From an uncultured Eubacteriales bacterium (lineage in GTDB: Bacteria > Bacillota_A > Clostridia > Christensenellales > Aristaeellaceae), in contig CADBLV010000007.1 in NCBI GenBank assembly GCA_902795555.1, positions 1 to 15,493 of the forward strand: a DNA stretch of 15,493 nucleotides, in the 5' to 3' direction. This document shows positions 365 to 15,493 of the stretch, piece after piece; the first letter of the stretch is position 1; every line of letters starts with the position of its first letter. The notes under the pieces are model-generated. The model did not search any database, had not been told where the DNA came from, and saw only the letters and a program-made list of their open reading frames with translations. Made by a program: the position numbers and the translations under genes.

Positions 365-366
365 GT

Positions 367-1234: not shown

Positions 1235-1241
1235 CAGATGG

Positions 1242-1247: not shown

Positions 1248-1264
1248 GACATGAATGCCGTTTT

Positions 1265-1294: not shown

Positions 1295-1317
1295 AACGCC
1301 TGCGAATCCGCTTTTGA

Positions 1318-1347: not shown

Positions 1348-1385
1348 AGGCTGATCCCGACAAGGTTTTCCCCGAGGAGGTCTCA

Positions 1386-2117: not shown

Positions 2118-2123
2118 CGATCC

Positions 2124-2792
2124 TCAGTCTCCGGCCTGCCCCTTCCCCCGCGCGTCGGAGAATCGGAACGGATAGGTCTTGAAGGCAGGATCCTCCGGCG
2201 GCTGATTTCTGAAAAACGTCATCACGCCCTGGCTTCCCACAGAATCATACAGCGGGCGGAAATCGGTTTTATTCCCTTCCGGAATCATCATCACATAGCT
2301 GGAACGGATCTCCTTCACCCGGCCGGCGATATGCCGGAGGGCCAGGTTCCGATCCGGATAGGAAACGGTTTCAAAAAAGAAAAATCCACAGTCATTCCAG
2401 AATTTCCGCGCAACCAGGATGTCCGATTTGGGTCGGGAGGGATCCAGGCCGCAGGCTGTTCCGAAATGAACAACAATCCCGCGTTTCGCCAGGGCGTCCA
2501 TCATCGGTCTGGCTGTCGCGGTCAGATAGGCCGTGTGCCGGTCTGTATAGCGGGGCATCGCACTGACGGTTCGATACAGGTCGTTCACCGCCGTGCCGAC
2601 AAGGCGGCAGAATTCCTCCGGTGTTCCGGAAAAATCCCGGATGAACCGGTTCACCGCCTCGCTCATCCGGGCATAGAGCTCCTTCCGGGTTTCTGCCTGC
2701 AGCTTTGCGATTTCCTCCGCGTTGCGGGCCACCGCGCGGCCGGAGAAATCGAAATACTGCCACAGCTGTCTGCATTCCCACCCACCGATCAT
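2124..2792 (-). CDS. Unrecognised protein, last gene of esterase operon
   Basis: A 222-residue protein I cannot assign to a family. No signal peptide or membrane segment is visible. The first 100 residues look mainly helical (NAEEIAKLQAETRKELYARM). The second half has alternating strands and helices (IVVHFGTACGLDP; SSYVMMIPEGNK; GVMTFF), suggesting an alpha/beta fold. The acidic and basic residues in RPKSDILVARKF and SYPDRNLALRHI could be active-site candidates, but this is speculation. The frame stays open upstream to 2930 inside the esterase gene. ATG 2792 is chosen because AAAGGTG lies 6 bases before it and the esterase stop (2804-2806) is just 11 bases upstream. The close spacing implies co-transcription and translational coupling with the esterase. 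Confidence 0.65.
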   Translation of the reverse strand: MIGGWECRQLWQYFDFSGRAVARNAEEIAKLQAETRKELYARMSEAVNRFIRDFSGTPEEFCRLVGTAVNDLYRTVSAMPRYTDRHTAYLTATARPMMDALAKRGIVVHFGTACGLDPSRPKSDILVARKFWNDCGFFFFETVSYPDRNLALRHIAGRVKEIRSSYVMMIPEGNKTDFRPLYDSVGSQGVMTFFRNQPPEDPAFKTYPFRFSDARGKGQAGD

Positions 2793-2803
2793 CGAAATCA
2801 CCT

Positions 2804-3796
2804 TTATTTGATCACATTCTCCTGAATCCAGCAATCCGCGAGGCTCGGCCACACCGCCGCCTCCCGGACCGGAATATGCTGAAACTGCATCTTCGGCGGA
2901 TCCTCCGGATGCAGGAAGGGAGCGAACCACCCTTCTATAGCGGGCGGCAGGGTGACCTTTCCGGCCTTGACCGCCTCGGCGGTTTTCCAGTTCTGCTCCT
3001 GCGTATAAGGCTCGCCCAGCTCCCCCTTTGCCCAGACCTCGTTGGACAAAGACAGCCCATGCTGCCCCTTCGGGAACACATGATGCGCAAAAGGAATGCC
3101 GGCCGCTTTCAGGGCTTCGGCCATCAGATAGCTGTTTTCCACGGGCACCGATTCATCCGTTGCCGTCTGCCAGAGGAAGATCGGCGGCGTCTGCGCGTTC
3201 ACCTGCTTCTCCAGGCTCATTTCCTCGATTTCCTCGGGGGAGGCGTCCGCGCCGAGCAGAGCGACAAAGGATTCCCGATGAGCAAAAGGACCGGAGGTGA
3301 TCACCGGATAGGACAGAATCGCGCCGTCCGGCCGGTTGGAAATCTCCGCGTAATCCGGATTTCCGTCGGAAACCCGGTCCCAGAACACGCAAAGCGAACC
3401 GCACAGGTGTCCGCCGGCGGAAAAGCCGATGAGCACCACTCCCTCCGGATCGATCCGCCAGGCATCGGCGTTCTTCCGAAGCACCCGCACCATGCGGGAA
3501 AGATCCATCAGGGGCTGCTTCTTCAGGGGCACAACATCGGCGCAGTTGGCCGTATAGGTCCCGACCGCGGCGTGATATCCCTTCTCGTAGAAGCACTGGG
3601 CCACGATGCCCGCCTCCGAGGGGGAGACATATCGATAAGCCCCGCCGGGAATCACCAGGACGCAGGGGCGGCGCTCTTCGCCGGGGTGCAGATAAAGCCG
3701 AAGGTTCGGCTGAAAGCCGAATGCGGCAGGCCAGGTATATTCCCCTTCCTGCCAGATGTTCACCCGCACAGGGCTGTCGCAGGCTGCATCCGTCAT
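2804..3796 (-). CDS. Alpha/beta-hydrolase, carbohydrate-esterase-like
   Basis: A 330-residue alpha/beta hydrolase of the HSL/acetyl-xylan-esterase type. The oxyanion-hole motif is PGGAYRY (near residue 50). The nucleophile elbow is GFSAGGHL, with serine in GxSxG. The acid is the aspartate in TATDESVPVENS, and the histidine is in GQHGLSL, so the catalytic triad is complete and in order. There is no signal peptide, so it probably acts in the cytoplasm on short acyl esters, for example acetylated sugars or oligosaccharides. That substrate is inferred from family resemblance. Its ATG overlaps the stop of the upstream gene (ATGA, 3793-3796), a sign of translational coupling. A C-terminal extension of about 60 residues after the catalytic histidine region is unassigned. 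Confidence 0.85.
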   Translation of the reverse strand: MTDAACDSPVRVNIWQEGEYTWPAAFGFQPNLRLYLHPGEERRPCVLVIPGGAYRYVSPSEAGIVAQCFYEKGYHAAVGTYTANCADVVPLKKQPLMDLSRMVRVLRKNADAWRIDPEGVVLIGFSAGGHLCGSLCVFWDRVSDGNPDYAEISNRPDGAILSYPVITSGPFAHRESFVALLGADASPEEIEEMSLEKQVNAQTPPIFLWQTATDESVPVENSYLMAEALKAAGIPFAHHVFPKGQHGLSLSNEVWAKGELGEPYTQEQNWKTAEAVKAGKVTLPPAIEGWFAPFLHPEDPPKMQFQHIPVREAAVWPSLADCWIQENVIK

Positions 3797-4260
3797 TTTC
3801 CGGCTCCCTCCGCGGGCACAAAGGCAGTCCCGTCAATGCCTTCGTCCTCGTCCCGCCAGCAGAGATTGCCTTCGTCGTCGAAGGTAAACTCAGCGTTCAC
3901 CTCGTCGTTTTCCGTCTCTGAGGAGAGCAGATCGCCGCCGGCGCTTAAGGTCTGCCGGCTTTTGACGCCGTATCCGTAGAGCGCTTCGTTATCCTCGTCA
4001 TAATTCCCGTTCAGCGTCCAGGAAACCTTCTCTGTCGCGCCGGTCGTCCAGGTGATCGTAATGTCGAAATACTCTTCCAGTTTGACGATCTCAATCACGA
4101 TCGTCTGCTCCGTGTCCTCCGGAAGCTCGAAGGCGCCGGACAGGGTCTCGGGCGTCGCAGTCCAAAGGCCCACAAAACGATCTCCCGTCACCTCCGCGCC
4201 GGCGGCGCAAACCCACAGCGCCGTAAACAGCGCCAGCGTTAAAGCAATGATTTTTTTCAT
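3793..4260 (-). CDS. Small secreted acidic protein, function unknown
   Basis: A 155-residue protein with a clear Sec signal peptide: MKKIIALTLALF, hydrophobic core, and probable cleavage after AGA near residue 22. The mature part is acidic and beta-rich (VGLWTATPETL; FDITITWTTG; EFTFDDEGNLCWRDEDEG), like small lipocalin-like or META-like secreted domains, but no family can be named with confidence. AAGGAAGGG lies about 7 bases before the ATG. It is the first gene of a three-gene operon and overlaps the esterase by four bases. Confidence 0.7.
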   Translation of the reverse strand: MKKIIALTLALFTALWVCAAGAEVTGDRFVGLWTATPETLSGAFELPEDTEQTIVIEIVKLEEYFDITITWTTGATEKVSWTLNGNYDEDNEALYGYGVKSRQTLSAGGDLLSSETENDEVNAEFTFDDEGNLCWRDEDEGIDGTAFVPAEGAGK

Positions 4261-4299
4261 GCCAGTTCCCTTCCTTCTGATGGATTCTTCTTCCTGTCC

Positions 4300-4328
4300 A
4301 CTTTATCATAATTTGCCCCATTCTTCAA
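4300..4328 (-). promoter_or_regulatory. Candidate promoter of the secreted protein/esterase operon
   Basis: On the minus strand TTGAAG (4323-4328), a 17-base spacer, then TAAAGT (4300-4305). Each hexamer has four of six consensus positions. It lies about 40 bases before the ATG at 4260 and is divergent from the HAD gene promoter. Confidence 0.35.
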
Positions 4329-4345
4329 GACTTCATTGTTTTTCC

Positions 4346-4374
4346 TTGTCATTTATTCCCGAAATCGGTATAAT
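4346..4374 (+). promoter_or_regulatory. Strong promoter of the HAD-deacetylase operon
   Basis: TTGTCA (4346-4351), a 17-base spacer, then TATAAT (4369-4374). This is near-perfect sigma-A consensus with optimal spacing. Transcription would start near 4381, giving a leader of about 25 bases that carries the ribosome binding site. Confidence 0.8.
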
Positions 4375-4390
4375 AACTCCAGCAATGTGC

Positions 4391-4398
4391 AAAGGAGG
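4391..4398 (+). promoter_or_regulatory. Ribosome binding site deciding the HAD hydrolase start
   Basis: AAAGGAGG lies one base before the in-frame ATG at 4400 and 7 bases before ATG 4406. Only the second spacing is workable, so translation is placed at 4406. Confidence 0.8.
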
Positions 4399-4405
4399 AA
4401 TGGAT

Positions 4406-5260
4406 ATGATCCCATCCCGCTTTCTGTTAGGTGTTGATTCCGACGGCACCGCCTTCGACAGCGTCAATCCCAAGCATCTGGAAGCGTTTATCCCCGCGGC
4501 GCTTGAAATCTGGAGCATGGACGGGGAGGTTTCCGAAAAATTCATCGAGATTTACAAAGAGATCAATCTTTTTTCCAACCTGAGAGGCACCAATCGTTTT
4601 CCCGCCCTGTTGGAAACCTTTGAGCGGCTGGAGCAATGCTTCCCGGAGGTTCCGGATCTGCCCGACCTTCAGCCTCTGCGGAATTTTGTGGCCGGCGCCT
4701 CCCGATATTCCACTTCTTCCCTGCAGGAATGGATGACGAAGCATCCCAGCTCCGAGCTGAGCAGGGTGCTGGCCTGGTCCATCCGCTCAAACGTGCTGAT
4801 TGCCCGCGCCTGCGAGGGGCTGATGCCCTATGACGGCGTGAAGGACGCCCTGAAGGCCGCCGGGAAAAGCGCCGCTGTGGCCGTCATTTCCGCGGCCAGC
4901 CGGGAAGAATTGGAAAAAGACTGGGTGTTCGGCGGCCTCATGCGGCATGTTGACATCCTGATGGGCCAGGAGGACGGCCCGAAGGCGGAACAGCTGAAAA
5001 AGGCCATGACCCTGAGCGGCGCCACGCAGGCGCTGATGGTCGGAGATGCCAATCAGGATCTCGTCGCCGCCCGGGAGGCTGACATCCGGTTCTATCCGAT
5101 CATCCCCGGAAAGGAAGCGGAATGCTGGCGGCAGTTCCGGGAGGATGTGCTTCCCCTGTTTCTGGAAGGAAAATACGGCCCGGCGCAGGAAGCTGAATAC
5201 ACCGCCTGCCTTCAGGAAGCCGTGCGGCAGGGAAACAGCCCGGCGGAGGAAGGCACATGA
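4406..5260 (+). CDS. HAD-superfamily hydrolase
   Basis: A 284-residue cytoplasmic HAD phosphatase. Motif I is VDSDGTAFDS, with nucleophile aspartate and general acid in DxD near residues 11-13. Motif II is the serine in VISAASREEL, motif III the lysine in EDGPKAEQL, and motif IV MVGDANQDLVAA. A long helical insert (about residues 30-150) between motifs I and II is the cap domain that would set substrate choice; the substrate cannot be read from sequence. Length is normal for C1-capped members. The frame is open far upstream (to 4052) but the promoter and ribosome binding site fix the start at 4406. The stop overlaps the start of the deacetylase gene (ATGA, 5257-5260), so the two are translated together. 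A shared role in envelope carbohydrate metabolism is plausible but inferred only from that linkage. Confidence 0.85.
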   Translation: MIPSRFLLGVDSDGTAFDSVNPKHLEAFIPAALEIWSMDGEVSEKFIEIYKEINLFSNLRGTNRFPALLETFERLEQCFPEVPDLPDLQPLRNFVAGASRYSTSSLQEWMTKHPSSELSRVLAWSIRSNVLIARACEGLMPYDGVKDALKAAGKSAAVAVISAASREELEKDWVFGGLMRHVDILMGQEDGPKAEQLKKAMTLSGATQALMVGDANQDLVAAREADIRFYPIIPGKEAECWRQFREDVLPLFLEGKYGPAQEAEYTACLQEAVRQGNSPAEEGT

Positions 5261-6642
5261 CCAGACGATCGCGTCGAATGATTCTGTCTGCCCTGGTCGC
5301 GGCCCTGCTGGCGGTTCTGCCGGTTTTTTCGCTGTCGCCCCTGCTGAGCAGCTTCGCCGCAGCGGAGCCGATCAGAGACTGTCACAGGGTGACCAACACC
5401 TATCGGGACACTAGGGCCGCCAATGGCTCCGTCGTCCGGCTGTGGCAGGCTGAAACCGCCCTGGATTCCGTTTCGGAAGAAGTAAACAGCCTCGCAAAGG
5501 CTTTCGCGGAGGAAATGGGCGCCGATCTGCCCGCCGCCGCCAACAACACCAACGGCAGCAGCCGCCTGGATGTGGAAATCCGATACAGCCGGACCGGCCT
5601 CAGCTGGCTTTCCTTCCTGATTCAGGCCCGCACCAGCTATCACAGGGATCTGACATCTCAGCAGTTTACCACCCGGACCTATAACATGGAAACCGGGCAG
5701 CGCATTACGCTGACAGACATTTTCGGAGATGACGTGGACGCCTGGAACCTGCTGGAGGAGCGGGTGCGGGAGACGCTGAGCAGCTACTGGCCGGACGAGG
5801 AACCCGATCCCGCCAGGCTGAATGCCCTGTGCACCCCGGGGGCCCTGGCCGAGGCGGAATTCACCCTGCACGGCATGAGTCTGGTGCTGCATTATCCTGC
5901 CTCCGCGCTGTATGAAGGACATCAGACCCTGATGGAGGTTCCCCTGTATTATCCGGAGATTCGGGAATATATGACGCCGGAAGCGGACCGGGAAACCGAC
6001 AACCTGCAGTATTATAAAACCTGTGCCCTCACCTTTGATGACGGCCCCGTGAACACGAACACGGCCAATGTCCTCACCTCCCTGATGGAGGCCGGCGCCC
6101 GGGGCACCTTCTTCGCCATCGGGAACCGGATGGAGGAATACTACTGGCTGATCCAGCGCGAGCACGACGAAGGTCACGCCGTGGCCAGCCACAACTGGCA
6201 TCACGGAGACGTCCGGGATGTGTCCGCATCGCAGCTGGCCGCCATGCCGGCCAAGGTCAACGCCGCCCTGAACAAAGTCATCGGCATCCCGGTTCGATAC
6301 AACCGGGTTCCGGGAGGGCTGTATCCCAAAATGGTCAGTGCCGGCGTAGACTGGGCGCTGATCCAGTGGAGCCTGGACACCTATGACTGGCGGGGCATCA
6401 GTTCAGCCGCCGTCATGAGCAAGGTGCGCAACAAGCTTCAGGACGGAGATATCATCCTCTGCCACGACATCAAGCCCAACACGGCCGAATCCGCCAAACG
6501 GATTGCCCGATATGCCGAGGAATCGGGATATCTGCTGCTGACCATTGATGAGCTCTTCGCCAAGGACGGCGTCAAGCTGGAATCCGGATCCGTTTACTAT
6601 CGCTGCACCGAAGGAGATACTTCCAAGCGGAGTGATCCGTAA
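5257..6642 (+). CDS. PdaC-like polysaccharide deacetylase (DUF3298-like + NodB/CE4)
   Basis: A 461-residue exported protein. A basic start and hydrophobic segment (residues 9-30) form a signal peptide or membrane anchor. Residues about 100-235 resemble the DUF3298/RsiV-like domain found in Bacillus PdaC (TYNMETGQRITLTDIF, ending EVPLYYPEI). Residues about 252-440 are the NodB/CE4 catalytic domain with all five motifs: TFDDGP (259-264, catalytic base D261 and metal ligand D262), SHNWHHGD (ligands H312 and H316), RVPGG (R350), LDTYDW (D374, D377), and LCHDI (H403). PdaC-type enzymes remove N-acetyl groups from peptidoglycan outside the cell, giving lysozyme resistance. Peptidoglycan as substrate here is inferred from the domain order. 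It starts within the stop codon of the HAD gene and is followed by inverted repeats at 6737 and 6800. Confidence 0.85.
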   Translation: MTRRSRRMILSALVAALLAVLPVFSLSPLLSSFAAAEPIRDCHRVTNTYRDTRAANGSVVRLWQAETALDSVSEEVNSLAKAFAEEMGADLPAAANNTNGSSRLDVEIRYSRTGLSWLSFLIQARTSYHRDLTSQQFTTRTYNMETGQRITLTDIFGDDVDAWNLLEERVRETLSSYWPDEEPDPARLNALCTPGALAEAEFTLHGMSLVLHYPASALYEGHQTLMEVPLYYPEIREYMTPEADRETDNLQYYKTCALTFDDGPVNTNTANVLTSLMEAGARGTFFAIGNRMEEYYWLIQREHDEGHAVASHNWHHGDVRDVSASQLAAMPAKVNAALNKVIGIPVRYNRVPGGLYPKMVSAGVDWALIQWSLDTYDWRGISSAAVMSKVRNKLQDGDIILCHDIKPNTAESAKRIARYAEESGYLLLTIDELFAKDGVKLESGSVYYRCTEGDTSKRSDP

Positions 6643-6736
6643 TCTCCGCCGCAATCCCCTTTTCGCTTTGCTGCGGAAGGCATCGGTGAGGGTCGACAGC
6701 GCAGGAATTGCGAATGATTTCACGAAGGTTTCAAAG

Positions 6737-6768
6737 AAGGCGCCGCCGGAATTTTCCGGCGGCGCCTT
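6737..6768. repeat. Long GC-rich perfect inverted repeat
   Basis: Arms of 15 bases (6737-6751 and 6754-6768) match perfectly around a two-base centre. The structure contains GGCGCCGCCGG. It lies between the convergent deacetylase and HtrA genes. Neither side has a clear T-run (minus side reads CTTTG), so it may block or stabilise mRNA 3' ends rather than act as a classical terminator. Confidence 0.65.
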
Positions 6769-6799
6769 GTGATGAATCCGCGTTGTTTATGCCGTTCTC

Positions 6800-6836
6800 C
6801 GAGCCGGCCTCCGTCTCAGGCGCCGGCTCGCTTTTG
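6800..6836 (+). terminator. Terminator of the HAD-deacetylase operon
   Basis: A nine-base stem CGAGCCGGC (6800-6808) pairs with GCCGGCTCG (6822-6830) and is followed by CTTTTG. The T-run is short (four) but the stem is all strong pairs. It ends just before the HtrA stop codon (6840-6842), so it serves the plus strand. Confidence 0.6.
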
Positions 6837-6839
6837 TGC

Positions 6840-8189
6840 TTACTGGGCTACCGCGTCCAGCATCTGGAGAGTCACCTGGATGTCCAGATCTTTGCCGGTG
6901 GTAGAGATCATGCCCTGAGCGGCATCCTCGACCTGATCGGGCCGCCAGATCTTCAGGTTGACGGTGTCGCCTTCCTTCAGCTGCTGCAGAATCCCGGAGA
7001 GATCCTCAAAGGTCGGAGTCACGGTGCCGTTCGCTTCCATAATCACGTCTCCGGCCAGCATGCCCGCCTTCTCGGCAGGGCTGTTTTCTTCCACAGACAG
7101 TACATACACGCCGTTGGGCAGGATGCCGTTGGTCATGGAGGCGCCGTTGAAGGTCGTCACGGAGACGCCCAGGCGGGGTTTCCCGACCATGCTGTTCTTC
7201 GAGCTGTCCGTTTCTTCCGCGCTGCCTTCCGTCTTCACTTCCGGAACTTCGGCGTTCAGCGCCTGCTCGATCACATCCTTCACCTCGTTGATCGGGATGG
7301 CCAGACCGATGTTCTCGATTCCCAGGGAATTCATGGACGAACGGGTGCCGCTGTACTTCATGTTCGGAATCCCGACCAGCTGCCCTGCCGTGTTAAACAT
7401 GCCGCCGCCGCTGTTGCCGTTGTTAATGGCCGCGTCGGTCTGGATCATCTTGTTCACCCGCTTAACCTTCCGGCCGTAGGCGTCGACGGTGGTACCCTGA
7501 GAGGATACCTCCCGATCCAGAGCGGAGATAATGCCCGCGGTCACCGTGCCGGTCATGATCGTTCCTTCGCCGTTGCCGGGATTCCCGATGCAGATGGCCC
7601 AGTCGCCGACGACCAGCTGGTCGCTGTCGCCCAGCTCAACGGGATCCAGGGGCAGTCCCGGCACATAGAGCACGGCCACGTCCTTTGATTCATCGCTGGC
7701 CGCCACCGTCGCGTCATACAGAGTCGCTTCGTCGTCTTCGTCCCGCAGAACGGACACCTTCAGGCTGCTGGCATTGTCCACCACATGATAGTTGGTCACC
7801 ACATATTCCTTCGCCACCACGACGCCGGAACCGCTGCCGCTCTGAACTTCCCTGGGCGTGTTCTGGCTTCCGTTGCCCCGGCCGTTCCGGCCGTTGCCGT
7901 TTCCATAGCCGTATCCGTAGCCGTAGCCGCCGCCGAAGAAGTAATCCCAGGGGTTGCTGTAGTAATCATTGCTTCCGCCGTTGAAATAACTCACCAGCTG
8001 ATAATTGTTGATGCCGACGACGCTGTCCCGGACCTTTGCCACCGCTTCGGTAAAGGGCGAGGTGAGCACCACCGTTTCCGCGCTTGCCGTTCCCGGATTC
8101 CGGAAAGCCGCAAACGCTGTGACTGCGAGCGCACAAACCAGCGCCAGCGCGATGTATCCCAACACATGTTTTCTGAAAGTACCTGTCAT
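6840..8189 (-). CDS. HtrA/DegP-like membrane-anchored serine protease with PDZ domain
   Basis: A 449-residue protein with an N-terminal membrane segment (about 8-29) and an extracytoplasmic trypsin-like domain. The catalytic triad is H135 (TNYHVV), D170 (ESKDVAVL) and S260 (NNGNSGGG). A PDZ domain covers about 335-445 (RLGVSVTTF, then SPAEKAGMLAGDVIMEANG). HtrA proteases degrade or refold damaged envelope proteins. Residues about 70-115 form an unusual glycine, tyrosine and asparagine-rich linker (FGGGYGYGYGYGNGNGRNG). The frame extends to a TTG at 8198, but AAAGGAGG (8199-8206) directly abuts that codon and stands 9 bases before ATG 8189, so ATG is used. It follows the GerMN gene by 168 bases. 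A possible -10 TATACT (8217-8222, minus) lacks a good -35, which could mean an activated promoter. HtrA is the usual downstream gene of walRK loci. Confidence 0.9.
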   Translation of the reverse strand: MTGTFRKHVLGYIALALVCALAVTAFAAFRNPGTASAETVVLTSPFTEAVAKVRDSVVGINNYQLVSYFNGGSNDYYSNPWDYFFGGGYGYGYGYGNGNGRNGRGNGSQNTPREVQSGSGSGVVVAKEYVVTNYHVVDNASSLKVSVLRDEDDEATLYDATVAASDESKDVAVLYVPGLPLDPVELGDSDQLVVGDWAICIGNPGNGEGTIMTGTVTAGIISALDREVSSQGTTVDAYGRKVKRVNKMIQTDAAINNGNSGGGMFNTAGQLVGIPNMKYSGTRSSMNSLGIENIGLAIPINEVKDVIEQALNAEVPEVKTEGSAEETDSSKNSMVGKPRLGVSVTTFNGASMTNGILPNGVYVLSVEENSPAEKAGMLAGDVIMEANGTVTPTFEDLSGILQQLKEGDTVNLKIWRPDQVEDAAQGMISTTGKDLDIQVTLQMLDAVAQ

Positions 8190-8198
8190 TTCAATCAA

Positions 8199-8206
8199 CC
8201 TCCTTT
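8199..8206 (-). promoter_or_regulatory. Ribosome binding site deciding the HtrA start
   Basis: AAAGGAGG on the minus strand, 9 bases before ATG 8189 and touching the alternative TTG at 8198. Confidence 0.75.
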
Positions 8207-8291
8207 CGGTTTCAGCCGTAGTATATCCCCCGATTTTGACAGGATTATGAACGCCATGTTAACAATTTATCTTTTTTTCACATCTGTTCTT

Positions 8292-8329
8292 CGGATCCCC
8301 TCCGGCTCTCTCAGAGCCGAATCGATCCG
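8292..8329. repeat. Two-tier hairpin between gerMN-type gene and htrA
   Basis: An inner perfect stem CGGCTCT (8303-8309) pairs with AGAGCCG (8313-8319) around a three-base loop. An outer six-base stem CGGATC (8292-8297) pairs with GATCCG (8324-8329). No T-run follows on the minus strand, so it is not a standard terminator. It could be a processing or attenuation element that sets HtrA levels relative to the upstream operon, or chance. Confidence 0.45.
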
Positions 8330-8357
8330 CCGAAAGCGATCCTGTAATCGGCTTTGC

Positions 8358-9893
8358 TCATCTGATCGGCTCCGGATTGCAAAGGAATTCCCCTGCCCAG
8401 TAAATCTCTCCGGCGATGGTTTCGATCTGCTTTCCCTCAAAGAAGAAGCAAACCCGGCTGAGGCGGCAGTTCATGGCCACCGTGTTGACCATGCTGTAGC
8501 ACAGCTGCGCCTCCCTTTCCTTTCCCCAGGCCTGAATTTCCGATCGGAATCCCTCCGAGAGATTGATCAGCAGCGTATCGCCCACGGCGGCAATCCCCAG
8601 CACATCGTCCTCCCGCAGGGCAGGCGGCATCACAGCCTCCAGTCCCTGGTTCCGCTCCCGCTCCGTCGGGCCGGCCATCAGCTCCGCCAGCAGTGCCCGG
8701 GGAGTTCCTGTCCGCTGTCTGTCCATGGGGCGCTGGCAGGCTGTCAGATAGCCGTCCCGGGAAAAATACACCGTCGCGTTTCCCATGAGCCAGCTTTGAA
8801 ACATGTTCCGCCGCAGAAGCCCGCCCAGGGCTGTCACGCTGCCGGGGGTTCCGTTCAGCTCGGTGATCGGGGTGTCGTTCACCCGGAAGCTCACCGCGCT
8901 CACGCCCGGCATGAAGGTGGTCAGCGTCATGGTCACCGCCGCCGCCAGGCACGGCAGATCCGTCTGCCAGGCTTCCAGCAGGGTTTCCACCTCTTTCCTG
9001 AAGGACAGGGTAATCAGCCGCCCGCCCTTCTCCAGTTCGCTGGTCAGGGGTTCATACACCATGTAATCCGCCAGATCCGGCAGATTCGCGTCTCCCGTCT
9101 TGTTTTTCCGAACGTCTCCGATGGCCCGCAAAAGCCCCATGGCCAGCTGCTCCGGCGTCTGGCCCGGGAAGGTCAGGATCCGGTTTTCACATATGATGCC
9201 CACCCCGTCCGTCAGGGGATCGTAAAGGGTTGCCATGGCGTTCAGGGGCGTCAGGGAGGCATCCTGTCCCAGAGGCGTTCGCCGGGCTTCCATCTGTTCC
9301 CACAACACCGGCAGGTTTTCGTCCGGATGAGCCGTCAGGCTGCCCATGGGCAGAATGCTGCTGACGTCCAGTCCGACGCTCATGTCCGCCGAAAGCACGT
9401 TGACAAAGCTGATCTCGTCCAGCGAGCAGAGCGTGGAAGCCAGCCCCACGCACATCGTATAAAAATCGGAAGAAGACAGCTGCAGGGCGCCGGTCCCCAG
9501 ATTCACCGTGCAGATACTGCCGCTGATCTCCACAGGTTCATATCCGTAGAGCGTAATCGGGCGCCCCTCCGTCCAGGGAATCACTTCCGCGTCCTCCGGG
9601 GTGTTCAGGAAGATGGTCACAAGGCTTGTCACCAGATCGTGAAGCTCCGCGGCCTCCAGCGTCACTTCCCGCGGAATCAGCTGCATCCCGTTGGCCGCAC
9701 GCAGATACAGCGTGGCCGTCCGTCTCTGTCCCACAACCCCGTCGCCGTCCGGTGCCGTCCAGGAAACCTGCGGCAGGGGAAGGGTGGGAGCGGGATTCTT
9801 TTCGACCTCCCGGTTTCGGCCGCAGCCGCTCAGGAAAGCCAGCATGATCATCGTCATCCCCAGCGCCGCAATCCTTCGAAATCGCCTGTTCAT
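8358..9893 (-). CDS. GerMN-domain lipoprotein
   Basis: A 511-residue lipoprotein: basic start, hydrophobic stretch and lipobox LSGC with the lipidated cysteine at residue 24. Two GerMN-type modules are likely. The first covers about 60-175 (ATLYLRAANGMQLI, then ICTVNLGTGAL). The second, clearer one covers about 375-500 (ATVYFSRDGYLTAC, ALLAELMAGPTERERNQ, TLLINLSEGF, and a C-terminal FFFEGKQIETIAG). GerMN domains occur in spore-germination GerM and in cell-envelope lipoproteins of Actinobacteria and Bacillota, some encoded beside two-component kinases. Here it follows the histidine kinase by four bases, the slot occupied by yycH/yycI in Bacillus, so a role in sensing or modulating the kinase is a reasonable inference. 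AGGGAG, 9 bases before ATG 9893, lies within the kinase 3' end. Confidence 0.8.
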   Translation of the reverse strand: MNRRFRRIAALGMTMIMLAFLSGCGRNREVEKNPAPTLPLPQVSWTAPDGDGVVGQRRTATLYLRAANGMQLIPREVTLEAAELHDLVTSLVTIFLNTPEDAEVIPWTEGRPITLYGYEPVEISGSICTVNLGTGALQLSSSDFYTMCVGLASTLCSLDEISFVNVLSADMSVGLDVSSILPMGSLTAHPDENLPVLWEQMEARRTPLGQDASLTPLNAMATLYDPLTDGVGIICENRILTFPGQTPEQLAMGLLRAIGDVRKNKTGDANLPDLADYMVYEPLTSELEKGGRLITLSFRKEVETLLEAWQTDLPCLAAAVTMTLTTFMPGVSAVSFRVNDTPITELNGTPGSVTALGGLLRRNMFQSWLMGNATVYFSRDGYLTACQRPMDRQRTGTPRALLAELMAGPTERERNQGLEAVMPPALREDDVLGIAAVGDTLLINLSEGFRSEIQAWGKEREAQLCYSMVNTVAMNCRLSRVCFFFEGKQIETIAGEIYWAGEFLCNPEPIR

Positions 9894-9897
9894 CCGC

Positions 9898-11367
9898 TCA
9901 CGCTCCCTTCCGGGGCAGCCGGACGGTAAATTCCGACCCTTCGCCCATGCTGGATTCCACCGTCACCGTTCCGCCGTGCAGCGTCACCAGCTGACGCACG
10001 ATGCTCAGCCCCAGCCCGGTTCCCCCGGTTTCACGGCTCCGGGCCTTATCCACCCGATAGAAGCGCTCAAACACATGATCCCGATCCTCCTCGGGAATGC
10101 CAACGCCGTTGTCACGCACCCGCCACACCAGATCCTCCCCGTCCAGATGCAGCGAAACCTGAATGATTCCGCCGTCGGGGGTGTATTTGATGGCGTTGTC
10201 CGTCAGATTATACAGGACCTGATGCAGCCGGCCCCGATCGCCCATCATGGTCAGACCTTTTTCAATCTCTCCCGTCAGCTGCTGATTCCGCTTCTCCGCC
10301 GCCGGATGCAGCAGGCGCAGAATTTCCTCCGTCAGTGCGGAGAGATCCACCGTTTCCTTCTTCAGGCCCTGCGCTGCGTCGTCCGTCCGTGTCAGCGTCA
10401 GAAGATCGGTGATGATCCCCGTGAGACGGTCGATTTCGTGGTTCATGTCCTCCATGAATTCCTGCTGCAGCTCCCGGGGCATGTCCGGCTGATACATCAT
10501 GGTTTCCAGCATGATCTTCATCGTGGCCAGCGGCGTTTTCAGCTCATGGCTGGCGTTGGAAACGAACTGATTTCGGGTCTGATCCAGGCTTTCCAGCTGT
10601 CCCGCCATGGTGTTGTAGGCTTCCGCCAGCTCGCGCATCTCCCGGCTGCCCCGAACCGGCGCGCGCACGCTCAGATCGCCCTTGCCCATCCGGCCCATGG
10701 TCCGGCTCAGATCGGTGATCGGCTTGGTAACGACCTGGCTGATAATCAGCGCCAGGCCCAGCGCTCCCAGGGCGATGATTAAAAACACGGTGACCAGCTG
10801 CCATTGCACGGAATTCAGAGAATCCATCAGTCCCTGAATCCGGCTGACATACAGAATCACGCCCAGGAGCTTCCCTCCGGAGCGAACCGCCCTGGCGCAA
10901 TAGGCCACATATTCCGCGCCGGTCTCCCCGCTCATGGCTTCCACGGTTTCCCTTCCGGGGGTATAAATGCCGTAGGCCTGGATATTTCCGCCCGTCAGCA
11001 CCTGCAGCACTTCCTCCAGGTTCAGCCGCCGTCCGCACAGGGCGCCGAAGGTATCCAGCTGCACCTTCCCGTCCGTGTCCAGAAACATCAGCCGCCCGCC
11101 CATGGCGTCCGCGTTGGTCCTCAGGGTTCGGTTCAGATTGTCGACAGACAGTTCCTCCAGATCCGGAATCAGCGCCTCCGCCACCCGTTCCGTCATCTGA
11201 TAATCTTCCCGCGTCCGCTGGTCAAACAGAAAGTCCCGAACCAGATCCGTCAGATTCGTGGCCGCCACGAAAAACGACGCGCCGACAACGACAAAAAAGG
11301 CCAGCAGGATTTTCCACCTGATGCTGGCCCTGGAAAAGCGGTTCTTAGTCCTGGTCCGTGAAATAAT
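9898..11367 (-). CDS. WalK/PhoR-type sensor histidine kinase, apparent ATT start
   Basis: About 489 residues: a basic start (RTRTKNRFSRASIRWK), TM1 about 18-37, an extracytoplasmic Cache-like sensor about 38-188, TM2 about 189-213, HAMP about 214-264, HisKA with phosphoacceptor H274 (SNASHELKTPL), and HATPase_c with N box (LTDNAIKYT), DNGVGIPEED, FERFYRVDKARS and GGTGLGLSIV. It should autophosphorylate and pass phosphate to the adjacent regulator. Unlike Bacillus WalK there is no PAS domain between HAMP and HisKA. No ATG, GTG or TTG exists between the regulator stop (11345) and TM1. The only in-frame conventional start upstream (GTG 11529) would overlap the regulator by 185 bases. GGGGAG at 11374-11379 lies 6 bases before ATT 11367, which is taken as the start, overlapping the regulator by 23 bases. 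The start remains uncertain; the kinase body is not. Confidence 0.85.
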   Translation of the reverse strand: MISRTRTKNRFSRASIRWKILLAFFVVVGASFFVAATNLTDLVRDFLFDQRTREDYQMTERVAEALIPDLEELSVDNLNRTLRTNADAMGGRLMFLDTDGKVQLDTFGALCGRRLNLEEVLQVLTGGNIQAYGIYTPGRETVEAMSGETGAEYVAYCARAVRSGGKLLGVILYVSRIQGLMDSLNSVQWQLVTVFLIIALGALGLALIISQVVTKPITDLSRTMGRMGKGDLSVRAPVRGSREMRELAEAYNTMAGQLESLDQTRNQFVSNASHELKTPLATMKIMLETMMYQPDMPRELQQEFMEDMNHEIDRLTGIITDLLTLTRTDDAAQGLKKETVDLSALTEEILRLLHPAAEKRNQQLTGEIEKGLTMMGDRGRLHQVLYNLTDNAIKYTPDGGIIQVSLHLDGEDLVWRVRDNGVGIPEEDRDHVFERFYRVDKARSRETGGTGLGLSIVRQLVTLHGGTVTVESSMGEGSEFTVRLPRKGA

Positions 11368-12037
11368 AACCCACTCCCCATTTGGTGAAGATGAACTCCG
11401 GTTTCGAGGTATCCCGTTCAATCTTCTCCCGCAGGCGCCGGATATGCACGTCCACTGTCCGCGCGTCGCCCGCGTAATCGTATTTCCAGACGTTTTCCAG
11501 CATTTGCTCCCTGCTGAAAACCGTCCCACGATTGGTCACAAACATCTGCAGCAGGTCAAATTCCTTGGCCGTCAGCTTCACATCCCGGCCGCCCAGGGTG
11601 ACGCTGCGTTTCACAAGGTTAACCTCCATGTCGTGTACGCGCACCACGCGCTGCTCCTGCTGATTCATGGCGCCTGAAACCCGGCGCAGGATCGTCTTGA
11701 TTCGGGCCTTCACCTCAAGGATATTGAAAGGCTTGGTCATATAATCGTCCGCGCCGTATTCCAGTCCGAGGATCTTGTCCATATCCTCGCCCTTGGCCGT
11801 CAGCATGATAATCGGGATATCGCTTTGTTCCCGAATCCGCTGGCACACAGCGATTCCGTCCATTTTGGGCAGCATCACGTCCAGCAGAATCAGGTCGAAG
11901 CACCCGGTTTCGAATTTATCCAGCGCCTCCTCGCCGTCCATGGCCGTGTCCGTCTCATAGCCTTCCTGCTCCAGCGTCTACTTGAGGCCTTTCAGAATCA
12001 AAGGCTCGTCATCCACCAGCAGAATTCTTCTACCCAC
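11345..12037 (-). pseudogene. WalR-like OmpR-family response regulator with in-frame TAG at codon 20
   Basis: Read through the TAG, the gene encodes 230 residues, normal for OmpR/PhoB-type regulators. It has acidic pair D9-D10 (ILLVDDE), phosphoacceptor D53 (LLLDVMLP region), T80 (MLTAK) and K102 (TKPF), then a winged-helix domain (KLTAKEFDLLQMF; GDARTVDVHIRRLREKIE; GVGYYF) close to WalR/YycF. GTG 12037 is the start, with AAAGGG (12047-12052) nine bases upstream. Codon 20 is TAG (11978-11980) within LILKGLK-stop-TLEQEGYE, where relatives carry an aromatic residue, so one base change from TAC would explain it. The first downstream ATG (11941, residue 33) would give a protein without the acidic pair. 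Everything after the TAG is intact with no frameshift, so the stop is recent, suppressed, or a sequence error. Listed as pseudogene only because of the stop. Confidence 0.75.
11374..11379 (-). promoter_or_regulatory. Putative ribosome binding site for the ATT-initiated kinase
   Basis: GGGGAG on the minus strand inside the 3' end of the regulator gene, 6 bases before ATT 11367 and 9 before ATT 11364. It is the best-placed purine-rich site for the kinase. Confidence 0.4.
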
Positions 12038-12046
12038 GCGTAAACA

Positions 12047-12052
12047 CCCTTT
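12047..12052 (-). promoter_or_regulatory. Ribosome binding site of the response regulator
   Basis: AAAGGG on the minus strand, nine bases before GTG 12037. It supports the full-length start upstream of the in-frame TAG, rather than the ATG at 11941. Confidence 0.6.
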
Positions 12053-12073
12053 CGGTTCTCAATCTGTCTTTTC

Positions 12074-13369
12074 TTACGGATCGTAGCTCACGCTGCGGTT
12101 CTGCTTGGTGTCCATCATGATAATCAGGGTCTTGCCCCGGAGCATCGGCATCTCGTATCCGTCGGGTCCGTAGAACACCGTGCGGTCCAGGATGCTGTCG
12201 CGCCGCCAGACGCCTTGGTAATGCTTGCCGCCCATGAAGAAATCGGCATTCCCGTCGCCCTTGTTCTTGATGATCTTGCCGTCCACCCGGATGTCATCCA
12301 TCTTCGCGGGCACAAACTGGGTTCCCTGCCCGTTCCAGTCGATCGTCACATACTGGACTATCACATTGGTGAAGGTGATCGGGTTTCCGTGGTTGATTTC
12401 AAAGGTGAAGGTACCCTCTCCGGACTTGTCACGGGCCACCAGCTTCGGATTTTCCAGCGTCAGCTCGTCATACAGGGCCGCGGCATTCGGATCGTCCTTC
12501 AGATAGACATAGCGCTCATAGACATTGTTTTCCGGATCGTATTCCAGGCGGCTGTTGTTCACAGCCTGCTTCCAGTCCACATAGATGAAGGAAGCATCGT
12601 CCCCGGGCAGGTTGGGATCGATCGCGTCCACGAACACATAATTGTGGTTGGCAACCTCCCAGTCCTTCGGGCACACTTCCTCGACGATCTCCGCCAGACG
12701 GTATCCGGCGTTGTTCGGGGAGTCAATCTGCGTTTTGTTGACGCGGAAATGCTTGTCCCCCGCCCGATAGGGCTTCGTCTTTCCGTCCGTGCCGTTATAC
12801 AGGATGCCCACGGTGTTCAGCTTCTTGCTCATCCAGGTGCCCGGCCGGGCCTTCGCCAGAGCGGAAATCAGCGGGTCCACGTTCAGGTCCTGCTTGCCGT
12901 GGAAGAAATAAGGACAGTTCCACTCAGCCTGGATGCCCAGGTGATGCGTACGGATGCTCCGCAGCGGCCCGACGATTTCCGGATATACGTTGTTGTAAAC
13001 AGCGGTGTGCCGGGTGATACCGTCGCTGCTCAGCATCGTCTCATACATGATATCGCAGTAGGAAGCGTACCACGGCGCATTCTGGCCGATGCCGCCGTTC
13101 GGGTTTGAAATCTGAACAAGCACGGGATAATACTTTCCCGTCTTCACCATGCCGCCGAAGGTCTCCGGCAGCTTCAGCGTCGCGGCCAGCTCCGCGATGC
13201 TCTCCCCTGTCGTGGGGCTGATCCCGGGCTCAATGGGGTTGTCTCCGGTTCTGTGAATATTGATTCCGCGTTTTTCGGTTCCGTTGATCATCACCTTGCC
13301 GGTTTCCACCGCGCAGGCCGTGCTCATCAGCAGCGCAAAGGCCAGCAGAAGGCTCCAAATTCGTTTCAA
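12074..13369 (-). CDS. DUF3048 (YerB-like) exported protein
   Basis: A 431-residue exported protein. A signal peptide (MKRIWSLLLAFALLMSTACA) ends near residue 20; the cysteine at 19 is not in a good lipobox, so it may be a cleaved secreted protein rather than a lipoprotein. The body matches the DUF3048 pattern: YYPVLVQISN, APWYASYCDIMYETML, DGITRHTAVYNN, VGPLRSIRTHH, and a C-terminal domain with ITFTNVIVQYV and FMGGKHYQGVWRRDS. The biochemical role of DUF3048 proteins is not settled. TTG 13369 is the only usable start, because an in-frame TGA lies nine bases upstream; GGGAG (13380-13384) stands ten bases before it. Only 36 bases separate its stop from the response regulator start, with no terminator between, so it is probably the first gene of that operon and shares its promoter and WalR box. 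Confidence 0.8.
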   Translation of the reverse strand: MKRIWSLLLAFALLMSTACAVETGKVMINGTEKRGINIHRTGDNPIEPGISPTTGESIAELAATLKLPETFGGMVKTGKYYPVLVQISNPNGGIGQNAPWYASYCDIMYETMLSSDGITRHTAVYNNVYPEIVGPLRSIRTHHLGIQAEWNCPYFFHGKQDLNVDPLISALAKARPGTWMSKKLNTVGILYNGTDGKTKPYRAGDKHFRVNKTQIDSPNNAGYRLAEIVEEVCPKDWEVANHNYVFVDAIDPNLPGDDASFIYVDWKQAVNNSRLEYDPENNVYERYVYLKDDPNAAALYDELTLENPKLVARDKSGEGTFTFEINHGNPITFTNVIVQYVTIDWNGQGTQFVPAKMDDIRVDGKIIKNKGDGNADFFMGGKHYQGVWRRDSILDRTVFYGPDGYEMPMLRGKTLIIMMDTKQNRSVSYDP

Positions 13370-13411
13370 ACCATTTCATCTCCCATACAAGAATTTTAAC
13401 ATTCCCGGAAG

Positions 13412-13427
13412 GAATCTGAAAAGATTC
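13412..13427. repeat. Small inverted repeat overlapping the operon -10 box
   Basis: GAATCT (13412-13417) and AGATTC (13422-13427) flank GAAA. The structure covers part of the -10 hexamer (13424-13429) and the likely start site, so it could be an operator half-site pair or a 5' transcript hairpin. Confidence 0.35.
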
Positions 13428-13453
13428 TACCATAAAGAGTCATGCCCTGTCAA
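13424..13453 (-). promoter_or_regulatory. Promoter of the DUF3048-walRK-like operon
   Basis: On the minus strand a perfect TTGACA (13448-13453), an 18-base spacer, then TAGAAT (13424-13429). Transcription would start near 13417, leaving a leader of nearly 50 bases before TTG 13369. Confidence 0.7.
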
Positions 13454-13470
13454 ATACTCTGTCGGATTTT

Positions 13471-13487
13471 TTTACATTTTCATAACA
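13471..13487 (-). promoter_or_regulatory. Candidate WalR box upstream of the operon promoter
   Basis: On the minus strand TGTTAT (13482-13487), five bases, then TGTAAA (13471-13476). This matches every position of the published WalR/YycF consensus TGTWAH-N5-TGTWAH. It ends 17 bases upstream of the -35 TTGACA, a usual place for an activator of the OmpR family. The cognate-looking regulator is encoded two genes downstream, so autoregulation is the simplest reading. Confidence 0.55.
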
Positions 13488-13494
13488 AAATAAG

Positions 13495-14088
13495 TCATTT
13501 TTGTGCGGGCAGATCCTCGCCGCGGATGTACTTTCCCAGCGGCGCGTAAATCAGCATGGCGATGATTTCCGTCACAATCAGCTCCGCCAGCATGTACCAG
13601 CCGTTATACAGGAAGGAATACAGCCAGGGACTGGTCATCGTCATATTCATAAAGGTTTCCGGCATCCAGCCGCCCCAGATCCACACGCCGGTAATCAGAT
13701 GGCAGAGAAACCGCAGCGTAAAGGTCACCGCGATGCCCACGGCCATGGCCGCCCGGGTGCGCCCCATGATGTTGTCAAAGATCCCGGACAGGCCGATCAC
13801 GGTATAGGCAATGATGTAATCCAGGAAAATGACGCCCACCGCCGTCGCAAACGTCGTCGCATATCCCACGTTGTCCAGCCCCAGCATCAGCTGAATCAGG
13901 CTGTACACAAAGGCGGTGAGGGTGCCCCATTTCCATCCCCACCGATGGCTGATAATCACCAGGGGCAGCATGCTGGCAATCGTGACGCCGCCGCCGAAGG
14001 GCAGGTCGATTTTCAGAATTCTCAGAATGGTTCCCAGCGCGATAAAAATCGCGCTCTCCGTCATGCTCCGGGTTAATCTCCTGTTCAT
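13495..14088 (-). CDS. thiT: Thiamine transporter, ECF S component ThiT
   Basis: A 197-residue integral membrane protein with about six hydrophobic segments, matching the ThiT/YuaJ family of energy-coupling-factor S components, which bind thiamine with nanomolar affinity and share an EcfAA'T module encoded elsewhere. Family motifs seen are LPFGGGVTIASMLPL and SHRWGWKWG near the N-terminus (L1 loop), RFLCHLITGVWIWGGW (histidine and tryptophans lining the site) and SFLYNGWYM (tyrosine and asparagine contacts). Length is typical. A GGAAGG site lies about nine bases before ATG 14088. The TPP riboswitch and terminator at 14127-14270 control it directly, confirming the thiamine role. No clear terminator follows its stop, so some read-through into the DUF3048 operon is possible. 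Confidence 0.92.
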   Translation of the reverse strand: MNRRLTRSMTESAIFIALGTILRILKIDLPFGGGVTIASMLPLVIISHRWGWKWGTLTAFVYSLIQLMLGLDNVGYATTFATAVGVIFLDYIIAYTVIGLSGIFDNIMGRTRAAMAVGIAVTFTLRFLCHLITGVWIWGGWMPETFMNMTMTSPWLYSFLYNGWYMLAELIVTEIIAMLIYAPLGKYIRGEDLPAQK

Positions 14089-14126
14089 GGTTCATTTCCT
14101 TCCTTTCACGGATGATTTAAACGCAT

Positions 14127-14156
14127 AAAAAATCCACATCCCTTTCGGCATGTGGG
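14127..14156 (-). terminator. Intrinsic terminator of the TPP riboswitch (expression platform)
   Basis: On the minus strand the arm CCACAT (14150-14155) pairs with ATGTGG (14134-14139), extended by CC/GG pairs across one mismatch and capped by GAAA. A six-T run follows (14127-14132). It lies between the aptamer and thiT. An alternative pairing of GGGAA and GCGG from the aptamer 3' edge with CCGC and TTCCC (14154-14158) would take bases from the terminator arm, giving a plausible antiterminator when TPP is absent. Confidence 0.8.
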
Positions 14157-14179
14157 AAACGAAGGCGGAAAAAGGATCC

Positions 14180-14270
14180 GCGCCGCTTCCCTACGGTAGG
14201 ATTACCTACACAGGTTCGAAGGGTCGGGCTCCTCGCCCTCTCAGCCGCCCCGCGGCACCCCCAGCGAAAT
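14180..14270 (-). ncRNA. TPP riboswitch (THI element)
   Basis: The minus strand carries the conserved THI-box blocks in order: GGGGGTGCC, CTGAGA (14239-14244), ACCCTTCGAACCTG (14211-14224), TAGGTAATCCTA, and GTAGGGAAGC. Closing stem P1 can form between CGCT (14263-14266) and AGCG (14184-14187). The RNA binds thiamine pyrophosphate; the downstream terminator implies that bound TPP switches thiT off by premature termination. Confidence 0.93.
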
Positions 14271-14272
14271 CT

Positions 14273-14287
14273 GTTCCGAATCGGAAC
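14273..14287. repeat. 15-base palindrome at the start of the riboswitch transcript
   Basis: GTTCCGA and TCGGAAC arms (seven bases each) surround one base. It lies between the -10 box (14294-14299) and the aptamer, at the expected first bases of the thiT transcript, where a hairpin could protect the 5' end. A repressor operator is an alternative. Confidence 0.5.
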
Positions 14288-14293
14288 GAAGCC

Positions 14294-14321
14294 ATTATAT
14301 CACCGTCGCCCGGTTTGTCAA
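14294..14321 (-). promoter_or_regulatory. Promoter of the riboswitch-thiT unit
   Basis: On the minus strand a perfect TTGACA (14316-14321), a 16-base spacer and a perfect TATAAT (14294-14299). It is placed between the tRNA terminator and the TPP aptamer, with start near 14287. Confidence 0.85.
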
Positions 14322-14332
14322 GTCTTCGGCTG

Positions 14333-14372
14333 CACGGAAAAGAGCCACCCGTCTGGATGGCTCTTTTCCGTG
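14333..14372 (-). terminator. Intrinsic terminator of the tRNA-Ala gene (symmetrical)
   Basis: A perfect 15-base inverted repeat (14333-14347 with 14358-14372) has the classic A-run, GC stem, T-run order: AAAAGAGCCA and TGGCTCTTTT. It starts right after the tRNA 3' end and insulates the tRNA from the thiT promoter. Its symmetry would let it stop transcription from either side. Confidence 0.85.
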
Positions 14373-14445
14373 TGGAGCATAGGAGATTCGAACTCCTGAC
14401 CCCAACACTGCCAGTGTTGTGCGCTACCAACTGCGCTAATGCCCC
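14373..14445 (-). tRNA. tRNA-Ala (anticodon GGC)
   Basis: A full 73-base cloverleaf on the minus strand. The acceptor stem is GGGGCAT with ATGCTCC, including the G3-U70 wobble pair that identifies alanine tRNAs. The D-arm stem is GCGC/GCGC, the anticodon stem CAACA/TGTTG with loop CTGGCAG (anticodon GGC, reading GCC and GCU), and the T arm AGGAG-TTCGAAT-CTCCT. The discriminator is A. CCA is not encoded (CAC follows), so a CCA-adding enzyme is needed. Confidence 0.95.
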
Positions 14446-14456
14446 GAACAGGAGTT

Positions 14457-14485
14457 ATCATAGCACAAGCTGGCAGGTTTGTAAA
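14457..14485 (-). promoter_or_regulatory. Promoter of tRNA-Ala
   Basis: On the minus strand TTTACA (14480-14485), a 17-base spacer and TATGAT (14457-14462), ending 11 bases before the mature tRNA 5' end. The tRNA therefore appears to be transcribed separately from the symporter gene upstream. Confidence 0.65.
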
Positions 14486-14547
14486 GCACTTTTTTGCCGT
14501 TTTCGGAAATTTTCATCTCCGGCGCTGTCGTCGTCCGTGATTTTGCC

Positions 14548-15493
14548 TTATTCATCGGCCTCGATGGAATCCTTTGCGCGCACGGTAACCACCCGGTCAT
14601 AGCAGGCAAAGATCCCGTCCACCCGGGCCTTGTCGGGGGCCGGGGTGAGAAGGCTCACCAGGGGCACGATCACCATGCCGGCCAGCATGCAGAAGGCGCC
14701 GGCATTGATGGGGCTCTGCAGGAATGCGGGGAAAAGCTGCTTCGCGGTCACATTCAGAATCATCACGATCGTGGAAAACATCACATTCACCATGCAGGCC
14801 GCTTTCGTCGTGCGCTTCCAGTAGAGGCCGTAGAGGAAAGGCGCCAGGAACGCGCCGGCCAGGGCGCCCCAGGAAATTCCCATCATCTGGGCGATAAACG
14901 CGCTCCCGGACTGATACTGGAAGATGGCAATCACCGCGGAAATCGCGATGAACACCGCAATCAGCACCCGCATCAGCTTCAGCTGGGTCTTTTCTTTCAT
15001 TTCCTTCTTCCGCACGTTTTTCAGGAAGTCCAGCGTCAGCGTGGAAGAGGAGGTGAGCACCAGGGAAGACAGGGTGGACATGGATGCGCTCAGCACCAGC
15101 ACCACCACCACAGCGATCAGGAAGGGGCTCAGATTGGACAGCATCGCGGGCACGATGGCGTCATATCCCTGCTTCGCCACGTCCACCTGATCGGAGAACA
15201 GCCGGCCGAAGCCGCCCAGGAAATAGCATCCGCCGGCGATGATCGTGGCGAAAACCGTGGAAACGATCATGCCCTTGGTGATGGCCTTTTCGCTCTTGAT
15301 GGCGTAGAATTTCTGAATCATCTGAGGCAGGCCCCAGGTTCCCAGGCTGGTGAGGATCATCACGCCGAACAGGTTCCAGGGATCCGGCCCGAAGAAGGAA
15401 TTGAAAATGCCGGGGACCGTGCCGTTGCCGATGGTTTCATCGGTGGCGGCGGACAGCCCGCTGAGGGAGGCCATGAAGCCGCCCTTGCTGCTG
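14548..15493 (-). CDS. Sodium:solute symporter (SSS family, PutP-like), 5' end outside window
   Basis: The last 314 residues of an SSS-family transporter; the frame is open through the window edge, so the true start lies outside (full-length members have about 500 residues). At least seven hydrophobic segments are visible. Family signatures are LTSLGTWGLPQMIQKFYAIK and the sodium-site segment LSASMSTLSSLVLTSSSTL, followed by a cytoplasmic basic loop (KNVRKKEMKEKTQLK), as in PutP-type proline transporters. The protein would import a small solute with Na+; proline is the best guess from resemblance, but other amino or carboxylic acids are possible. The hydrophilic C-terminal tail ends AKDSIEADE. 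No obvious terminator is seen between its stop and the tRNA promoter. Confidence 0.85.
   Translation of the reverse strand, partial: SSKGGFMASLSGLSAATDETIGNGTVPGIFNSFFGPDPWNLFGVMILTSLGTWGLPQMIQKFYAIKSEKAITKGMIVSTVFATIIAGGCYFLGGFGRLFSDQVDVAKQGYDAIVPAMLSNLSPFLIAVVVVLVLSASMSTLSSLVLTSSSTLTLDFLKNVRKKEMKEKTQLKLMRVLIAVFIAISAVIAIFQYQSGSAFIAQMMGISWGALAGAFLAPFLYGLYWKRTTKAACMVNVMFSTIVMILNVTAKQLFPAFLQSPINAGAFCMLAGMVIVPLVSLLTPAPDKARVDGIFACYDRVVTVRAKDSIEADE

Follow-up and report, generated by a model that had tools for sequence, protein, structure and literature searches.

A single in-frame TAG in a WalR/MtrA-like response regulator gene of an uncultured Aristaeellaceae bacterium, and a putative AUU start of the partner kinase

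The lipoprotein encoded with the two-component system MtrA-MtrB of Mycobacterium is LpqB, which has a GerMN-like domain; infC is a gene with an AUU start. For the WalR/YycF-WalK system of the Bacillota, the walRK genes of C. difficile are described as essential for growth, and the WalK of this organism as having no PAS domain (PMC9210968). Rare starts are described for RcsD-Hpt of Yersinia (AUU, with a ribosome-binding site; PMC10191623), for Borrelia PncA/BBE22 (AUU, with a truncated protein given in databases; PMC13398362), and for Streptomyces sigR (GTC; PMC5472188). Here we report on contig CADBLV010000007.1, positions 1 to 15,493, of an uncultured Eubacteriales bacterium (Aristaeellaceae), a gut-type member of the Clostridia; this whole stretch of 15,493 nucleotides is called the window. 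It carries an OmpR/PhoB-type response regulator gene interrupted by one in-frame TAG, next to the gene of a partner sensor histidine kinase (Table 1). The TAG is present in the sequence but most likely is not part of the organism's biology, or else it is a plain recent nonsense mutation.

Translation of 12037-11345 on the minus strand reads VGRRILLVDDEPLILKGLK*TLEQEGYE..., with the TAG at 11980-11978 (codon 20) as the sole internal stop, followed by 210 open codons and a TAA. The frame before and after the TAG is correct and the TAG is confirmed. The first-pass annotation had described a 230-codon regulator gene in one frame apart from this codon, a GTG start with a ribosome-binding site upstream, and an acidic pair D9-D10, and all of these were recovered: GTG and GAAAGGG are found as in relatives, and D9-D10 are read in frame, upstream of the TAG. 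With X placed at the stop, the product is 92.6-93.9% identical to its four nearest orthologues across all 230 codons, and the open reading frame is for this reason more than a product of chance.

The nearest-genus set comprised 65 loci, which yielded 34 distinct regulator sequences. None of these has an internal stop, and their start codons are GTG (24), TTG (8) and ATG (2). An aromatic residue at codon 20 in relatives, as proposed earlier, was borne out at the protein level (Tyr in 116 and Phe in four of 120 proteins listed, of 7,999 scored); in the DNA, where 80 of 582 loci were kept and supplied 81 aligned rows, the count was Tyr 44, Phe 36 and Ile 1. The proposed origin of the TAG from TAC stands as a single-base change, but most relatives have TAT and not TAC at this position (29 of the 34 congeneric sequences, against five with TAC). 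The nearest genomes found are 83-85% identical to the window in the regulator stretch and 78-79% across about 5 kb; no same-species sequence was found at these identities, and we infer that the window belongs to the genus of these relatives.

The ratio of nonsynonymous to synonymous substitution rates (dN/dS) of the window regulator against its four nearest species is 0.041, 0.038, 0.043 and 0.039, and 0.034-0.063 for the six pairs among these species. The 34 congeners agree at 181 columns; there the window differs only twice, by Lys3 to Arg and by the stop at codon 20; both private changes lie within the first 60 bases, a weak hint at a local sequence problem. Since dN/dS is like that of the relatives and only these two private departures are seen, the regulator gene was under full constraint until recently, or is so still; with dN/dS not relaxed, the TAG is therefore a consensus error or a very recent change. 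An orthologue is present in 41 of 45 congeneric genomes, as read from the match rows. The neighbourhood of codon 20, searched as an exact pattern in viral contigs, gave no matches, and a protein search with the 198-residue fragment after the TAG did not return the window's own truncated protein among the 120 matches listed. Two related proteins are unusual: P0122, of 190 residues and with 167 kb as its longest contig, has a late start, and P0059, of 221 residues, is missing some ten of them past position 32; the two are nearly identical in their later sequence, and may mark breakage or assembly trouble in a related species.

We favour, with modest confidence, an origin of the TAG in a consensus or assembly error, or in a minority read: it is a single-base difference private to this contig, which is probably from a metagenome, and the main population of the organism would carry Tyr at codon 20 and make an ordinary full-length regulator. 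We lean towards error because a gene so conserved (41 of 45 congeners) is seldom lost without other decay, and a long-broken gene would gather replacements, so that the dN/dS of 0.038-0.043 counts in favour of this reading. For the 14 hand-assigned genes of the window, 1,321 of the 41,913 possible single-base changes create a stop, and the expected number of nonsense codons per window is 0.004, 0.044 and 0.44 at per-base error rates of 1e-5, 1e-4 and 1e-3, respectively; some nonsense codons are thus to be expected across many scanned windows, and neither an error nor a recent mutation is improbable.

Several observations weigh against an error. The 14 hand-assigned genes show no further internal stop and, where relatives were matched, the alignments of the kinase, GerMN and DUF3048 genes run in one piece, as expected from the earlier description of an intact operon; the window thus gives no sign of generally poor sequence quality. 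A change from a Tyr codon to TAG requires a transversion, and a recent real nonsense mutation would give the same outcome in every test that was run. Furthermore, a kinase protein identical to that of the window (P0147) is found on two contigs, the longest of 15,493 bases, the length of the window; this strain or one very close to it therefore seems to be represented by a second contig.

Less probable, at a level to be taken seriously, is that the sampled strain really carries the TAG as a nonsense mutation of very recent date. Translation would end after 19 residues and the regulator would be lost; production of the kinase may continue from the nested start of its gene (see below); the regulator would be non-essential here, or covered by a paralogue, or the variant would be disappearing. 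The sequence as it stands carries the TAG, and loss may be tolerated because relatives carry many OmpR-type paralogues (in eight genomes, the YycF model has 13-27 matches each, partial receivers included); other family members are also odd near the N-terminus (P0122 and P0059). Against this speak the retention of the orthologue in 41 of 45 congeners at a dN/dS of about 0.04, and the lack of added decay in the regulator in the comparison with the 34 congeneric sequences. Error is inferred over recent mutation, and the weighting of the two is a judgement and not a measurement.

The first-pass annotation had listed suppression or recoding beside error and mutation, and its set of three explanations was sound as a list; as an option of equal rank, decoding did not hold up. 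A TAG read as an amino acid via a suppressor tRNA, pyrrolysine or a reassigned code would agree with the fully conserved remainder of the regulator frame and with the use of TAG as terminator in none of the 14 hand-assigned genes (seven TAA, seven TGA), but the latter is unsurprising because TAG ends only about eight of 87 conserved frames in ten relatives (an approximate count, some TAG-ended frames matching poorly at their ends). RF1 did not exceed the cut-off in 10 of 45 congeners, with seven weaker matches and three without a match, including G249, one of the four nearest genomes; these gaps are probably missing sequence in drafts.

The searches for pyl genes, RF1, tRNAs and TAG usage cover congeners and other relatives, not the window's own genome. 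RF1 was found over the cut-off in 35 of the 45 congeners, including the nearest (G268, G219 and G212), and TAG serves as a terminator in relatives. Candidate genes for pyrrolysine use, for which a search had been suggested along with one for a CUA tRNA, were not matched over the cut-off in these congeners: PylSn was matched in none of the 45 congeners, with a positive Methanosarcina control, and PylD in none over the cut-off, with weaker matches below it in 30. None of 48 tRNAs (Rfam and ARAGORN) in the near-complete congener G100, with all its matches on a single contig of 3.26 Mb, reads UAG (anticodon CTA), and the Tyr tRNA (GTA) is present; none was found among the 34 and 27 tRNAs of G219 and G212, which are incomplete drafts that lack the Tyr tRNA as well. 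A CTA tRNA pattern had matched only tRNA-Arg(TCT), once in each of the three nearest genomes; it is a poor test, as its GTA version gave no tRNA-Tyr accepted by ARAGORN, and was replaced by the Rfam searches. The 88 bases after the TAG showed no unusual RNA fold in comparison with shuffled sequences (z -0.11). Reassignment would not be expected to show as one isolated TAG at a Tyr site, and the loss of RF1 together with disuse of TAG as terminator is not seen in relatives; in a screen of more than 250,000 genomes, the Firmicutes reassignments named concern arginine codons (PMC8629427). Dedicated decoding of the TAG lacks positive support, and we regard it as very unlikely.

Very unlikely, too, is an escape by internal initiation, as considered in the first-pass annotation, in which the cell would use a shortened regulator begun at the ATG of codon 33. 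This ATG (11941) is in frame and would give 198 residues with a complete match to the DNA-binding domain, and the nearest Shine-Dalgarno-like stretch, AGGAAGG, lies 19 bases upstream; this spacing exceeds the usual Shine-Dalgarno distance, however, and codon 33 is Met in only 24 of the 34 congeners and Thr in the other ten. The product would also be without beta-1 and the D9-D10 metal site, and a receiver of this kind could hardly be phosphorylated.

A by-product of the analysis concerns the partner kinase, which, judged from sequence comparison, is probably translated in this Clostridia family from an AUU nested in the last codons of the regulator gene, behind a GGGGAG-type ribosome-binding site of its own. 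In the +1 frame, the kinase gene overlaps the regulator end, by 20 bases if the AUU is the start; there is no sensibly placed ATG, GTG or TTG in the window and in many relatives, and the ATT, with a GGGGAG-type stretch 9 bases upstream, is conserved (junctions in loci L001-L080 and L106-L135). A GTG near 11373 was ruled out as kinase start, for it lies in the regulator frame. Junctions were collected from 111 sources and gave 98 distinct ones, 97 of which are in the +1 frame. No usual start occurs from -23 to +12 around the regulator stop in 72 of these 97, each of which has an ATT at -20 to -14; the other 25 have a usual start, and 18 of them the ATT (Fisher p 3.7e-5, overstated since kinship is ignored). 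A conserved ATT with a Shine-Dalgarno-like stretch is hence found where no usual start stands at a plausible place. Alternatively, the kinase could start at TTG -26 in the species that have it: of the 72 junctions, 34 have a usual start at -35 to -24, mostly this TTG among the rows listed, and 38 have none there either. The kinase could also be reached by a +1 frameshift.

Codon usage in the regulator was compared in 76 distinct sequences (136 sources, at least 74% identity). The second Tyr codon, codon 225, is TAT in 73 of the 76, and the preceding Tyr codon in 11; GGA or GGG accounts for 71 of 75 at the Gly codon that forms the GGGGAG or GGGGGG stretch, whereas GGC is the commonest codon in nine of the remaining 11 Gly columns. 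When the 130 columns are ordered by how far they deviate from the codon use of the gene itself, 221 comes first, 225 second and 223 third; this ordering was computed after that by plain conservation had been seen. At the ends of paralogues the motif is matched in seven of 20, with GGG (4), GGT (2) and GGC (1) as first Gly codon. The AUU start and ribosome-binding site of the kinase may have frozen the synonymous codons of Gly221 and Tyr225 in the regulator. On the other side, plain codon conservation ranks columns 225 and 221 only tenth and eleventh, column 223 is left unexplained by an AUU start, regulator Tyr94 is equally one-sided (TAC in 71 of 75), and in the window the kinase frame offers two more usual start codons far inside the regulator, TTG at -74 and GTG at 11529.

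Codon 225 is TAC in three sequences (L039, L041 and L100). L041 has a GTG at -8. In L039, the preceding Tyr codon is TAT, so that the kinase frame still has an ATT, shifted upstream by one codon, and there is a GTG at -29. In the congener L100 the kinase lies outside the overlap: the regulator stop is followed by GAGGAG and ATG AAG ATT TCA CGC, and the kinase begins MKISRIRTK..., so that a separate ATG stands two codons ahead of the ATT seen elsewhere and the ISRIRTK peptide is kept; regulator codons 221 and 225 are changed to GGT and TAC. This pattern, in one species, fits a kinase start at or next to the ATT and a constraint lifted after the overlap was gone, and our confidence in the AUU start is raised because of it. 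In another congener (L102, genome G284), the kinase match begins only at query residue 58, 76 bases past the regulator stop, as if an N-terminal part were deleted or mis-assembled.

The annotated kinase, 9898-11268 on the minus strand, is probably too short. The database entry identical to it (P0147; 456 residues) starts at GTG 11268 inside the first membrane helix; the five next kinase rows have 456-462 residues, and the four of them that were read also start inside this helix, whereas P0153 (493 residues) and P0159 (491 residues) start upstream, with MVTIS and MVIIS.

Table 1. Features of the regulator locus (window positions).
Feature	Position	Strand	Remark
OmpR/PhoB-type response regulator gene (WalR/MtrA-like)	11345..12037	-	230 codons, one interruption
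In-frame TAG, codon 20	11978..11980	-	Tyr (TAT/TAC) in 34/34 distinct congeneric sequences
GTG start codon	12035..12037	-	GAAAGGG upstream; close relatives alike
Codon 3, AGA (Arg)	12029..12031	-	Lys in 34/34 distinct congeners
ATG at codon 33, possible internal start downstream of the TAG	11939..11941	-	Met 24, Thr 10 of 34 congeners
GGGGAG, proposed kinase ribosome-binding site	11374..11379	-	inside regulator WGVGYYF codons
ATT, proposed kinase AUU start	11362..11364	-	+1 frame, inside second Tyr codon TAT (regulator codon 225)
Partner sensor histidine kinase (HAMP, HisKA, HATPase)	9898..11364	-	488 aa from proposed AUU start
GerMN-domain protein, lipobox-like N-terminus	8358..9893	-	next gene downstream
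HtrA/DegP-type serine protease with PDZ domain	6840..8198	-	
DUF3048-domain protein	12074..13369	-	upstream of regulator

An isolated TAG within a conserved regulator gene might be mistaken for recoding; it should not serve as evidence of a changed code here, because the tests point to a single private base. Should the TAG be real, it would mean that natural strains can lose a regulator despite its strong conservation. If the AUU start is true, the kinase would be mis-annotated across the family, and this by-product matters more than the TAG; such a start would hold kinase levels below those of the regulator, and would let kinase production respond to initiation factor 3.

The locus resembles WalR/YycF-WalK of the Bacillota in that an OmpR-type regulator gene adjoins that of a HAMP-HisKA-HATPase kinase and, in the window, an HtrA-type protease is encoded two genes further downstream. 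The 198-residue part of the regulator matches Response_reg and Trans_reg_C, i.e. the OmpR architecture of receiver and winged helix, and the order regulator-kinase-GerMN is kept at all 14 relatives' loci, with HtrA found in nine; in the window the cognate kinase is adjacent and HtrA is in the neighbourhood. The name WalR given in the first-pass annotation is plausible in that the orthologue is the best match to the YycF model (NCBIfam NF040534) in all of eight genomes, but at 248-257 bits it exceeds the cut-off of 340 in none of the eight, and paralogues reach 256.5 bits, less than 1 bit behind the orthologue in some. The window proteins differ from this system in the same way: the 198-residue part of the regulator scores 226.9 bits against the cut-off of 340, the kinase scores 284.7 bits against 725 for the WalK model, and no PAS domain was matched in the kinase, although the WalK of C. 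difficile lacks one as well. With MtrA-MtrB of Mycobacterium and its lipoprotein, the locus shares the order regulator-kinase-lipoprotein, the putative lipoprotein of the window being the GerMN protein with a lipobox-like start; it differs in phylum and in scores below the cut-offs of the MtrA model (198-residue part only) and the MtrB model. WalR/MtrA-like is thus a fair description of the system, with membership in WalR unproven.

With pyrrolysine and amber suppression systems the locus shares an in-frame TAG within a conserved gene; it differs in that no pyl match over the cut-off and no UAG-reading tRNA was found in the relatives examined, and in that relatives have Tyr at the site. An ordinary nonsense or consensus error in a metagenome contig is likewise one private base change with no wider recoding signature, and we know of no difference from it. 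The putative kinase start is comparable to those of RcsD-Hpt, BBE22, sigR and infC, in lying outside ATG, GTG and TTG and having a ribosome-binding site; among the literature matches listed, and with no wider claim, no sensor kinase with an AUU start of this kind is mentioned. The difference from these rare starts would be that here, as read from sequence alone, the gene is that of a sensor kinase nested in the 3' end of its regulator gene, and that the arrangement is kept across many species; as for BBE22, the annotated protein would be too short.
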